A stretch of 64,000 nucleotides of DNA. Source: Salinibacterium sp. Its GTDB lineage: Bacteria > Actinomycetota > Actinomycetes > Actinomycetales > Microbacteriaceae. The position numbers and the translations under genes are program-made. The stretch is from positions 558,001 to 622,000 of the forward strand of contig JAHBSZ010000001.1 of NCBI GenBank assembly GCA_019638845.1. The letters are read 5' to 3'. Within the stretch, counting starts at the first letter, position 1. Each line of letters starts with the position of its first letter. The notes beneath the pieces are model-generated. The model was given only the letters and a program-made list of their open reading frames with translations, did no database searches and was not told where the DNA came from. Positions 59,529-63,244 of the stretch are shown here, one piece after another.

Positions 59529-60542
59529 TCACTCCGCCTTGGTGCTCGCGGCGACGTTCTTCGACGTGGCACTGGCGTTCGACTCGTACGACGTGTTCGT
59601 GGACTCGAAGAAGTTCACGAGCTGAAGAGTGTCGTTGGCAGCAGCCATCCACTTCGCCGGGTTCGACACGTTGTAGTGGGGCTCAAACCCCAGCTCTTCG
59701 AGTCGACGATCCGCGAGGTACTTGACGTATTGGTTGATGTACGTGGCATTCAGCCCGAGGATTCCGCCGGGAAGCAGGTCGTGGTTGTATTCCTCTTCCA
59801 TCTCGACGGCATCGAGAATCATCTGCTTGATCTCCGCAGCAAACTCTTCGGTCTGCAGGTCGGGATTCTCTTCGAGCACGGTCAGGATGAGGTTGATGCC
59901 GAACTTGAGGTGCAACGACTCATCGCGCACCACCCAATCCATGAGCGAGCCGAAGTTGCGCAGCAGGTTGCGCTGACGGAAACTCAACGCGACCATGAAG
60001 CCCGAGTAGAACCAAACACCCTCGAGAATCACGTTGTACGCGACGAGGTTGCGGATGAAGTCCTTCTTGCCCTCGGTCGTAGTGATGTCGAGGGTTTGCT
60101 CCGTCATGCGACGGATGTACTTGACCTCGAACTCCTCCTTGCGCGCCATAGACGGGATGTCGGCGTGGGCGGCGTATGCGGCTTCACGATCGATCGGGAA
60201 CGTCTCGAGTACATACTCGAAGCTCATGCAGTGGTTGGCTTCTTCCCACATCTGCTTCGCCAGGTAAAGGCTGCACTCTGCCGCGTTCACGTACGGGTAG
60301 ACGCCGAAAGCCAGCGCCTTGTTGACGAGCAATTCGTTCGGGTTGAAGTAGCTCATCAAGAACGTCACGGCGTGACGTTCTTCATCGGTCATCTTCTTGA
60401 AGTCTGCGATGTCTTCGCCGAGCTGGATCTCATTCGGGAACCAGGTGTTGGCGACTGCCTGGTCATACAGGTCCATCGCCCACTGGTACCGGATGGGCTT
60501 GAGCAGCAGGCCTTCTTGGAGGCCGGTTCCTAGGATTCCCAT
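59529..60542 (-). CDS. nrdB: Ribonucleotide reductase small subunit (class I; class Ic-like, Phe at the radical Tyr position)
   Basis: This 337-residue ferritin-like R2 subunit provides the oxidant that starts ribonucleotide reduction. Metal ligands are Glu70 (NPNELLV), Glu101 and His104 (WEEANHCMSF), Glu174 (VILEGVWFY), and Glu208 and His211 (RDESLHLKFG). The residue four after His104, normally the radical Tyr, is Phe108, and the first ligand is Glu instead of Asp. Both traits are those of Chlamydia-type class Ic subunits that use a Mn/Fe centre. The C-terminal 25 residues hold Tyr319, a possible radical-transfer residue. It starts four bases after the tail ORF stop. Confidence 0.93.
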   Translation of the reverse strand: MGILGTGLQEGLLLKPIRYQWAMDLYDQAVANTWFPNEIQLGEDIADFKKMTDEERHAVTFLMSYFNPNELLVNKALAFGVYPYVNAAECSLYLAKQMWEEANHCMSFEYVLETFPIDREAAYAAHADIPSMARKEEFEVKYIRRMTEQTLDITTTEGKKDFIRNLVAYNVILEGVWFYSGFMVALSFRQRNLLRNFGSLMDWVVRDESLHLKFGINLILTVLEENPDLQTEEFAAEIKQMILDAVEMEEEYNHDLLPGGILGLNATYINQYVKYLADRRLEELGFEPHYNVSNPAKWMAAANDTLQLVNFFESTNTSYESNASATSKNVAASTKAE

Positions 60543-60545
60543 GGC

Positions 60546-60626
60546 TTACTGGCAGCTCTCGCACTGAAGGTCGTCCATCGGATCGACGGGAACGTAGTAC
60601 TCCTCGACAGCAGCGGCGCGGTCCAC
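60546..60626 (-). CDS. 26-residue ORF encoding the NrdA-type redox CxxC tail
   Basis: Directly behind nrdA, in the -1 frame, GTG at 60626 (overlapping the TAG stop as TAGTG) opens a frame reading VDRAAAVEEYYVPVD and then PMDDLQCESCQ before TAA. A C-terminal CxxC of this type is normally the end of the NrdA chain, where it re-reduces the active site. AGGCAGG lies six bases before the GTG, so separate initiation is possible. It is either a split-off redox peptide, a tail reached by frameshifting, or a sequencing error in an intact gene. Confidence 0.6.
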   Translation of the reverse strand: MDRAAAVEEYYVPVDPMDDLQCESCQ

Positions 60627-63088
60627 TAGTTGCCTGCCTTCGGTGCGAGTCCGCCGAAACCGCGACGAGCGGGCGAGGCCGGAGCCGCGATGGGAGCGCC
60701 TCCGGTCGAGCCTGTCGAGACCGGCTGGGGAGTGACGATGTCTTCGGACTTGTTGACCTTCACCGTCGACTGTTCCGCGGTGTGGCGGGGCTTCATGTGG
60801 AGGTAGTAGGTCGTTTTGACGCCGCGTTCCCACGCTGCGAAGTAGATGTCCATCATGTCGCCGAGGTCACGTGTTTCGAGGTACATGTTCCGGCTGATCG
60901 CCTGATCGATCCACTTCTGAGCGCGAGCAGCGACCTCGAGGAACGCGTACGGCGAGAGCTGGAAGCTCGTCTTGTACACCTCCTTGAGGTGATCCGGGAT
61001 GGCGGCTACGTTCTGGATGTCACCCTGGCTGCGCAGAATCGCTTCGCGCGTGGACTCCCAGATGCCGAGCTTCTGAAGGTCGTGCACGAGGTTCGCGTTT
61101 ACCTCGAGGAACTTGCCGTTCGACGTCGCCCGGCTGAAGATCTGTGCGAACTGCGGGTCGAGGCCGGGAGTCGTTCCCGCGACGAGACCGATCGATGCCG
61201 TGGGCGCGATCGCCATGAGGGTGGCATTGCGCATGCCGCCCTTCACCTTGAGCCGCAGAGCATCCCAGTCGAGGCGTGTCGTGCGATTGACCTTGATGGC
61301 GATGCCGCGGTCGGCTTCGGTGAGCGCGATCGAGTCGAGGGGGACAAGACCCTCTGACCAGCGGCTGCCCTCGAAGTTCGGGTATGCACCCCGCTCCTGC
61401 GCGAGGTCAGTGGATGCCTCGATCGCAGCGTAGGAGACGTGCTCCATGATCTCGTCGATGAGGTCGTACGCCTCTTCGCTCTCGTAGCTGATCCCGAGCT
61501 TCTCGATGATGTCGGTGAAGCCCATGACGCCAAGGCCGACTGCGCGGTTCTGTGCGTTGGAGAAATCTGCCTCCTGAACGCTAGAGCGGGTGATGTCGAT
61601 GAGGTTGTCGAGCTGGCGAACCGCAAGTCGAGCCGAGGCGGCGATCTTGCTGAAATCGACGGAGAGGCTTCCGTTCTCCGCGGTGAGCATGTGCTGCGAA
61701 AGGTTGATCGACGCAAGGTTGCACACGGAAACGTTGTCTTCGTCTTGCGGGAGCGTGATCTCGGTGCACAGGTTCGAGAGATGGATGGTGCCCGTGTTGT
61801 TGTTGAGGGCGCGGTTGTTGATCGTGTCTTTCCACGTCAGCCACGGGTGGCTGGTCGTCTGAAGAGAAATGAGGATCGACTTGAATTGTTCGCGCGCCGT
61901 GATCTTCTTGAACATGCGCATCTGGCCGGCCTCGGCCTTGGCGACATACTCGTTGTACTTCTCCGAGAACGCCTTCCCGTACAGCTCGTTGAGATCGGTG
62001 ACCTCAAGCGGGTCGAAGAGATACCAGTCGTCGTCGTTCTGTACGCGCTTCATGAACTCGTCGCTGATCCACACTGCCGTGTTGGCGGTGCGGGTGCGAC
62101 GATACGGGTCTCCCGAGTTCTGGCGGAGGTCCAGGAACTCGGGAAAATCGAGGTGCCAGTTCTCCATGTAGAAGCACAGGGCGCCGAACTTCTTGCCGCC
62201 GCGGCTCACTGCACGAAGGATCGAGTCGATCGTGTGCATGAACGGGATCGGACCGGTCGACGTCGTGTTGTTGCTTCGGATGGGCGACCCTTGGGCACGC
62301 AATTTGGTAACACTGAGACCGATGCCGCCCGTGCCTTTGGTGAGCCACATGACATCGCGGGTCGTCTTCGCGATGTGCTCCATGTCGTCTTGCATCTCCA
62401 TGACGAAGCAGTTCGCGAGCTGGGGGTAGATGGTCCCGGCGTTGACGAGCGTGGAGCCGGCCGCGAGGTACTCGAGGCTCGACATCTTCTCGTAGAACGC
62501 GAGAGCCGCCTTCGTGGGGTCCGCCTCATTGAGCGACAGGCCCATGGCAATGCGCATCCAGAAGTACTGGGGAACCTCGAGCGCGTCGCCGTTGCGCCCC
62601 TTGATGCCGTAACGGTTGTTGAGAGTAACGACGCCGATGTACTTGAGCAGTTCGTCGTGCGCGGGCTCAAGCTGCGAAGCAAGGAAGTCGAGGTCGAACA
62701 GTGAGGTGAGTCGCGGGTCGAGAAGGCCCTCGTCGACACCCCGCGTCACGTTCGTCGGGAAATGCGACCGGTGCAGCTCCTTGAGCTCCGCGGCGGTCTT
62801 GTAGTCGCCGAGCACGCGCTTGTAGATGGTCTTGAGTAGGAGGCGCGCCGCCACGATGTCGAAAGCGGGGTCATCCTTGACGTTCTGGAGGGCGACCTGA
62901 ATAACCGCCTCGTCGAGCTGCTGAGTCGTGATGCCGTCGAACAATGTGAGTTCGAGTTCCGAGGCGATCTGCGTCACCCAGGTGATGTTGTCGTCGAGAC
63001 CAGCGCTTGCTGACTCGATCGCCAGATTGATCTTGTTGGCGTCGTACGGCTCCCGCTCGCCGCTGCGCTTGACGACTGTGATTCCCAC
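60626..63088 (-). CDS. nrdA: Ribonucleotide reductase large subunit, without in-frame C-terminal redox tail
   Basis: This 820-residue R1 subunit reduces NDPs to dNDPs. Residues 1 to about 95 are an ATP-cone (VVKRSGEREPYDANKIN). The active-site thiols are Cys227 (QLANCFVME) and Cys456 (VSVCNLASIN), with the thiyl-radical Cys441 and Glu443 in LSNLCTEITLP. The radical-path YY lies in TTYYLHMKP. After residue about 780 comes a low-complexity Ala/Pro/Gly tail that contains a dispersed repeat (VSTGST) and ends GFGGLAPKAGN without Cys. The GTG has GAGGGAG eight bases upstream. The upstream gap carries NrdR-like boxes. Confidence 0.93.
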   Translation of the reverse strand: MGITVVKRSGEREPYDANKINLAIESASAGLDDNITWVTQIASELELTLFDGITTQQLDEAVIQVALQNVKDDPAFDIVAARLLLKTIYKRVLGDYKTAAELKELHRSHFPTNVTRGVDEGLLDPRLTSLFDLDFLASQLEPAHDELLKYIGVVTLNNRYGIKGRNGDALEVPQYFWMRIAMGLSLNEADPTKAALAFYEKMSSLEYLAAGSTLVNAGTIYPQLANCFVMEMQDDMEHIAKTTRDVMWLTKGTGGIGLSVTKLRAQGSPIRSNNTTSTGPIPFMHTIDSILRAVSRGGKKFGALCFYMENWHLDFPEFLDLRQNSGDPYRRTRTANTAVWISDEFMKRVQNDDDWYLFDPLEVTDLNELYGKAFSEKYNEYVAKAEAGQMRMFKKITAREQFKSILISLQTTSHPWLTWKDTINNRALNNNTGTIHLSNLCTEITLPQDEDNVSVCNLASINLSQHMLTAENGSLSVDFSKIAASARLAVRQLDNLIDITRSSVQEADFSNAQNRAVGLGVMGFTDIIEKLGISYESEEAYDLIDEIMEHVSYAAIEASTDLAQERGAYPNFEGSRWSEGLVPLDSIALTEADRGIAIKVNRTTRLDWDALRLKVKGGMRNATLMAIAPTASIGLVAGTTPGLDPQFAQIFSRATSNGKFLEVNANLVHDLQKLGIWESTREAILRSQGDIQNVAAIPDHLKEVYKTSFQLSPYAFLEVAARAQKWIDQAISRNMYLETRDLGDMMDIYFAAWERGVKTTYYLHMKPRHTAEQSTVKVNKSEDIVTPQPVSTGSTGGAPIAAPASPARRGFGGLAPKAGN
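60704..60722 (-). repeat. Dispersed intragenic element, copy 4
   Basis: GGTCGAGCCTGTCGAGACC on the plus strand; translated on the minus strand as VSTGST within the Ala/Pro/Gly-rich tail of NrdA, 76 bases before the in-frame stop. It is identical to copy 1 apart from the last base, which makes it the clearest pair in the window. Confidence 0.65.
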
Positions 63089-63196: not shown

Positions 63197-63244
63197 CCAC
63201 TATATATCGTGCCGACGACACTCTGCCAACCCCAGATGTAGTGG
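63197..63244. promoter_or_regulatory. Tandem NrdR-like boxes upstream of nrdA
   Basis: CCACTATATATCGTGC (63197-63212) matches the NrdR box consensus I know (ACACWATATATWGTGT) at 13 of 16 positions. A weaker ACCCCAGATGTAGTGG (63229-63244) matches at 11 of 16. The two start 32 bases apart with 16 bases between, the three-helical-turn spacing typical of paired NrdR sites. They suggest ATP/dATP-responsive repression of the ribonucleotide reductase genes. Confidence 0.65.

Follow-up and report, generated by a model that had tools for sequence, protein, structure and literature searches.

The C-terminal tail of class I ribonucleotide reductase (RNR) is a classic swinging arm and has been taken for an integral piece of the chain. 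Its cysteines reduce the active-site disulfide, and redoxins recharge the tail; in yeast RNR, a tail can also act on the neighbouring monomer. The reduction by tail cysteines and the recharging are partly covered in PMC4520616 and PMC5704485, and a subunit cross-talk test has been reported for a class II enzyme (PMC5704485). A split RNR has been described in Pseudomonas aeruginosa, in whose class II enzyme, NrdJa/NrdJb, the dithiol-exchange part is encoded apart and is needed in vivo (PMC4520616). NrdJb is a 229-residue protein from the same operon as NrdJa (PMC4520616) and holds a zinc-finger domain (PMC5704485; PMC9669993). In 2015, the proteobacterial NrdJ was called the sole split RNR in a non-viral organism (PMC4520616). 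In Aeromonas phage Aeh1, nrdA-a and nrdA-b encode the RNR large subunit in two pieces, and many genes-in-pieces splits of phage RNRs are ascribed to inteins, introns or homing endonucleases (PMC3653736).

The arrangement that we describe here resembles NrdJa/NrdJb in that the dithiol part and the catalytic subunit have separate reading frames. It was found in Microbacteriaceae, a bacterial family of soils and waters. NrdJa/NrdJb is class II and B12-dependent, whereas the Microbacteriaceae system is class I, and its dithiol part is an ORF of 21–57 codons that also occurs unlinked, with NrdR-type boxes, and on phages. With a class I enzyme and a short tail that has no significant Pfam match, the locus studied here is not of the NrdJa/NrdJb type. 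As in the Aeh1-type splits, the large subunit comes in two pieces; here, in contrast, the detached piece is the redox tail alone, which also exists in unlinked copies. Searches of open-licence literature, mostly at the level of titles and abstracts, turned up neither a free class I RNR tail nor a split Microbacteriaceae NrdA. Judged from its genes, this appears to be a new split RNR variant: class I, with a tail-less NrdA and a tail that is unlinked, NrdR-type controlled and phage-borne. Now that the tail is detached, a peptide of some 26 residues allows docking, exchange and stoichiometry to be tested directly. If the reading given below is true, this is a very small RNR part, carried by phages and plasmids as a gene small enough to escape annotation, and an essential enzyme has given up its redox arm, now a free, shared dithiol microprotein.

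The nrdA–nrdB junction in the window and in Microbacteriaceae

The window, a Salinibacterium sequence of 64,000 nucleotides, carries nrdA for the class I RNR alpha subunit on the minus strand (63088-60626; 820 codons, TAG at 60628-60626). Its product of 820 amino acids matched NF005101 with 1616.6 bits, up to model position 781 of 822, and PF02867 with 553.7 bits. It is without a C-terminal CxxC tail; its last residues are ...ARRGFGGLAPKAGN*. All four cysteines are at 227, 305, 441 and 456, and none lies C-terminal of 456, which agrees with the preliminary description of a Cys-free NrdA tail. In comparisons with human RRM1 and P. aeruginosa NrdA, C227 and C456 aligned with what we take to be the active-site pair, C441 with the presumed radical cysteine and Y761/Y762 with the presumed relay tyrosines. 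The barrel and the catalytic positions of a class I NrdA are present, and the C-terminal cysteine pair is absent from the chain. This NrdA should make the usual active-site disulfide, yet it has no C-terminal pair of its own to reduce it.

A putative free NrdA tail peptide is encoded directly behind nrdA by an ORF of 26 codons (60546..60626, minus strand; GTG...TAA, VDRAAAVEEYYVPVDPMDDLQCESCQ). The GTG (60626-60624) has one G in common with the nrdA TAG, and the TAA lies at 60548-60546. A weak Shine-Dalgarno (SD)-like stretch, AGGCAGG (60633..60639, minus strand), stands six bases 5' of the GTG; AAGG alone was matched in SD scoring of this stretch. The gene nrdB, for the RNR beta subunit (59529..60542, minus strand; NF007186, 408.6 bits), starts 3 nt past the tail stop. 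These coordinates confirmed the out-of-frame 26-codon CxxC ORF that had been noticed before, including its start inside the nrdA TAG and the AGGCAGG six bases ahead.

We then read the ends of nrdA at 112 loci in 110 Microbacteriaceae genomes (two genomes twice). The CxxC tail was fused to NrdA at none of the 112 loci, and a separate tail ORF lay just 3' of nrdA at 105, which represent 103 of the 110 genomes. Relative to nrdA, the frame of the tail was +2 at 90 of these 105 loci, 0 behind the stop at 9 and +1 at 6. Seven genomes had no called adjacent tail: one ends at a contig edge (G220), another (G048) has an NrdA frame that continues past a tail lying in another frame (locus L137), and five (G054, G092, G161, G176 and G214) had no adjacent tail within 700 nt. 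ATG was the chosen start in 84 of the 103 genomes and GTG in 19. The starts fell at −4 to 0 nt from the end of the nrdA stop in 77 of 103 (full range −4 to +58 nt), a spacing that would fit termination-reinitiation or coupling for the operon copy. Adjacent tails were 21–57 codons long, with a median of 27; these lengths are approximate, as the starts were picked by SD score. Among 80 loci from named organisms, a set that overlaps partly with the 110 genomes and includes Salinibacterium, Rhodoglobus, Clavibacter, Leifsonia, Naasia, Galbitalea and Schumannella, 75 had a separate tail, none a fused one, 3 had no adjacent tail and 2 were unreadable.

The main alternative in the preliminary description was an indel or a sequencing error, for which a comparison of the nrdA–nrdB junctions of relatives had been suggested. 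An error of this kind would look like the draft genome G660 from another family, in which the tail lies in a 63-aa frame without an NrdA core (L428) and whose congeners are fused. The comparison returned the same split in 103 of 110 genomes and never a fused tail, with separate ORFs that have their own start codons, at varied distances and in three frames, and the named organisms were alike (75 of 80 loci). Unlinked copies of the tail exist as well. Conservation across genera thus rules the error out, and the chance that a natural indel or an assembly error in this strain broke an ordinary NrdA frame is negligible.

The ratio pN/pS over the last 15 codons was 0.180 among 94 distinct adjacent tails and 0.166 among 36 distinct remote tails, with one tail taken per locus. 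Both cysteines and the preceding P, D and P were invariant in adjacent and remote tails, and the free tails end in ..VPVDPMDxLQC(D/E)SCQ. A chance match of a short peptide was excluded by pN/pS, the three frames and synteny. The tail peptides submitted to Pfam, NCBIfam and PHROGs had no significant match there (best Pfam E 0.12). The tail ORF appears to be coding and subject to selection.

Relation of the free tail to fused NrdA tails

In an order-level sample of 198 genomes, there were 34 non-own matches to NF005101; 29 of these loci were fetched, and 28 were readable at the C-terminus (L228 was not). A fused CxxC tail was present in all 28. The 15 closest loci (L200–L214) and L215 end, fused, in ..CP(V/T/I)DP...L.C(E/D)(A/S)CQ, and the 12 more distant ones (L216–L227) in a fused ..CEACQ; in sister families, the fused tails read ..CPVDPMERLQCESCQ. 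The profile built on free tails also picked up the fused tails. The two kinds are homologous, have the CxxC at the very end and presumably do the same job, the tail being covalently attached in one and a separate ORF in the other. When the tail profile was run on a class-wide sample of 394 genomes, 22 loci outside Microbacteriaceae were newly fetched, of which 17 were fused to an NrdA core, 1 was the cut-off draft G660 and 4 were partial and unread. One weak match to the profile within Microbacteriaceae (G179) had no tail pattern.

In a tree of 58 NrdA cores, all 31 rows labelled split formed one clade (SH-aLRT 100) nested within the fused ones; the label covers L248, which is unreadable at its end, and L281, L289 and L294, which are without an adjacent tail. 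Since this nesting needs one change, it indicates that the tail was detached once. A further cysteine of many fused tails (ACPVDP) is lost in the free tails (AVPVDP or similar). By homology and the tree, these results indicated that the free tail is a descendant of a fused NrdA C-terminus that was detached once.

The unlinked tail gene, its upstream boxes and a role in trans

The source genome has a second, unlinked tail copy (contig C9:178480-178403; MENEDNVGGYAVPVDPMDLLQCDSCQ), with GGGGAGG ahead of its ATG. The preliminary description had the operon copy right and missed this one. At least two tail matches were found in 81 of the 91 NrdA-bearing genomes of a 199-genome Microbacteriaceae sample, and the unlinked tail genes mostly had a strong SD and an ATG. 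Homologues of the hadA, hadB and murB genes of the source locus, names that were assigned from translations, adjoined 33 of 41 remote tail loci; the other 8 were extra, plasmid or different loci. Two genomes, G005 and G012, had 5 and 7 tail matches (L193, L194, L196), of which some are clustered and some lack a convincing start; they may be duplicates in decay. At L159 (3731-4060; G062:C7:574310), a tail lies in frame behind an SSB-like piece (Pfam SSB, E 0.014, below the cut-off); it has no clear start and looks like a remnant.

Two NrdR-type boxes lie upstream of nrdA in the window on the minus strand. Box 1 (63229..63244; CCACTACATCTGGGGT) has 5 mismatches and box 2 (63197..63212; GCACGATATATAGTGG) has 3 mismatches to the NrdR box consensus; they are 32 nt apart, start to start. 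Across nrdA upstream regions, a box pair with at most 5 mismatches each was present in 66 of 78, mostly at a distance of 32 nt, and in 0 of 390 shuffles. The search for box pairs also covered 38 remote tails that have the GG(Y/C) form. A pair with at most 6 mismatches each preceded 32 of them (dinucleotide shuffles, 4 of 380), and 31 of these 32 pairs were spaced 33 nt start to start; at a limit of 5 mismatches, the count was 21 of 38 (shuffles, 0 of 380). The limit of 6 was fixed after a first look at the boxes. Relatedness among the upstream sequences makes the shuffles exaggerate their independence, and the matches are loose, with 5 and 6 mismatches of 16 in the source genome. Among the six remote tails without a pair, L174, L176, L179 and L191 look like near misses, L182 is on a plasmid and L195 is an extra copy.

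A box spacing of 32–33 nt corresponds to spacers of 16–17 bp, and the strongest NrdR binding has been reported at spacers of 15–17 bp (PMC12051234). As in the NrdR regulon (PMC9110341; PMC12051234), both nrdA and the unlinked tail gene are preceded by tandem boxes with a spacer of 16–17 bp. The source genome also has an nrdR gene (C7:193256-193681). At the level of sequence, two boxes about three helix turns apart and an nrdR gene, the marks of an NrdR regulon, are both present, and NrdR would be expected to bind these putative boxes. In the parts of the NrdR literature consulted (PMC9110341; PMC12051234), none of the regulon members mentioned encodes an RNR tail alone.

Seven genomes were without an operon tail (G054, G092, G161, G176, G214 and the genomes of L281 and L294), and all seven keep an unlinked tail. 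A box pair 32–33 nt apart, with at most 7 mismatches each, was present in six of the seven. The 0.9-Mb genome G054 had a single tail match overall. Because three of these genomes (G092, G161 and G214) belong to one genus, the losses of the operon copy number fewer than seven. These genomes suggest that an unlinked tail copy can suffice.

The unlinked copies also bear on how the operon tail is expressed. If programmed frameshifting or stop readthrough yielded a fused NrdA-tail chain, one would look for a tail frame that is already open ahead of the nrdA stop, as in 75 of 103 loci, or in frame 0 after the stop, as in 9 loci, and some fused product may form at such places. In 28 of 103 loci, the tail frame opens at most 13 nt before the nrdA stop. 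Programmed frameshifting goes with a fixed frame relation at the overlap, whereas three relations and a variable start distance (−4 to +58 nt) were found here. An SD and a box-type promoter of their own mark the unlinked genes, which, together with the seven genomes that have no operon copy, indicate that frameshifting is no general explanation. We consider a fused chain very improbable, in line with the preliminary description, which had thought termination-reinitiation a likelier route than frameshifting.

Tail and NrdA occurred together. In the 199-genome sample, the tail was found in all 91 genomes with this NrdA (cut-off, E below 1e-180) and was absent from 104 of the 108 without it, among which three genomes with only a 29–31%-identical RNR were counted. 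The four genomes with a tail and without NrdA were two drafts with good tails (G151 and G209) and two with weak matches (G171 and G179). In the genus sample, NrdA and at least two tails were present in 24 of 25 genomes; G019 had neither this NrdA nor any tail and only a distant (30%) RNR match.

We propose that, in an ancestor of the Microbacteriaceae class I NrdA, the C-terminal redox tail became detached and turned into an independent small gene with a median length of 27 codons. NrdA would be a tail-less catalytic subunit whose active-site disulfide forms at each turnover; free peptides would enter its active site as a fused tail does and re-reduce the disulfide in trans, and the oxidised peptide would then be re-reduced by thioredoxin or glutaredoxin. 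The tail peptide is acidic (7 D/E, 1 K/R), and a basic (R/K)(R/K)GF(G/A) motif is present near the end of NrdA in 111 of 112 loci. The peptide could dock on this motif, which is only a guess, because the motif also occurs in the linkers of fused enzymes.

Alternatively, the free peptide may serve as a regulator, an inhibitor or a redox carrier of general use, either in place of re-reduction of NrdA or in addition to it. The unlinked copy is an extra one in most genomes (at least two tail matches in 81 of 91, seven in G012), one cysteine of the tail has been lost, and most tail-bearing viral records are without NrdA, all of which would suit such a role. On the other hand, this NrdA has no other CxxC tail, the tail co-occurs with it, its cysteines are invariant, its promoter is of the same box type as that of nrdA, and seven genomes keep only the unlinked copy; we therefore regard this alternative as improbable. 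It is very probable that the tail is a free dithiol microprotein, detached from a fused NrdA, that re-reduces NrdA in trans. The separate mini-peptide of the preliminary description is supported by the split in 103 of 110 genomes and by the unlinked copies, and its role for NrdA is the one we infer, as are its translation, docking and dithiol exchange and the help of viral copies to the host enzyme.

Tail copies on phages, viruses and plasmids

Among annotated phages, three distinct matches were found, in Clavibacter phages CMP1 and CN1A and in Pontimonas phage phiPsal1. Their E values are weak (0.2 to 2), and their support comes from a short ORF that retains the complete CxxCQ end. In two phages, the tail copy lies 3' of a holin gene. 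Plasmid matches came from 19 records, all of Clavibacter, Leifsonia or Gryllotalpicola; the tails on pCM2 (L066) and on a Leifsonia plasmid (L067) lie near genes for single-stranded DNA-binding proteins. In IMG/VR, 312 stretches encode a tail relative, and 80 loci were kept. The kept viral tails are mostly 20–33 codons long at the chosen starts; many of these starts lack an SD, and the open frame of some tails extends far upstream. NrdA was found at 1 and NrdB at 4 of the 80 loci, and a search of 50 whole viral records, which may be fragments or proviruses, found NrdA in 1.

At one IMG/VR locus (L398, 4977-9174; record G457), the tail ORF is followed by an NrdA frame of 1136 aa and then by nrdB. 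This NrdA contains an insert, at about residue 440 of its NrdA match, and is tail-less at its end. Of 92 tails from viruses or plasmids, 2 were preceded by a box-like pair, including the one at this locus.

These copies may reflect a free dithiol microprotein that is shared. Hosts would encode it through a gene with NrdR-type boxes and in the operon, and phages and plasmids would bring their own copies, mostly without boxes, to run the tail-less RNR of the host for their own DNA synthesis; we lean towards this reading with some reserve. That the phage and plasmid copies are decoys inhibiting the host RNR, or passengers, seems unlikely, even though NrdA was in only 1 of 50 viral records and copies sit behind a holin gene in two phages and near a single-stranded DNA-binding protein gene on two plasmids. 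The viral copies retain the full CxxC end, which argues against decoys or passengers, as does the virus of L398, which has a tail-less NrdA of its own with a tail just upstream. The preliminary description had foreseen a separate peptide; that phages and plasmids carry copies, and that an unlinked gene with NrdR-type boxes exists, went beyond it.

Several plasmid and phage tail copies have no annotated gene beneath them. On one Leifsonia plasmid, a tail ORF of 33 aa (L062, 4977-5078; WP_223361114.1) is misannotated as ribonucleotide-diphosphate reductase subunit beta. Three viral loci (L331, L334 and L351) have two distinct tail-like ORFs each, one of which is longer and divergent and ends in, for example, APVDPADLTMCEGCQ. 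At two others (L394 and L396), the free tails retain the further cysteine (ACPVDP and FCPTDP), and they are perhaps from phages whose hosts have a fused NrdA.
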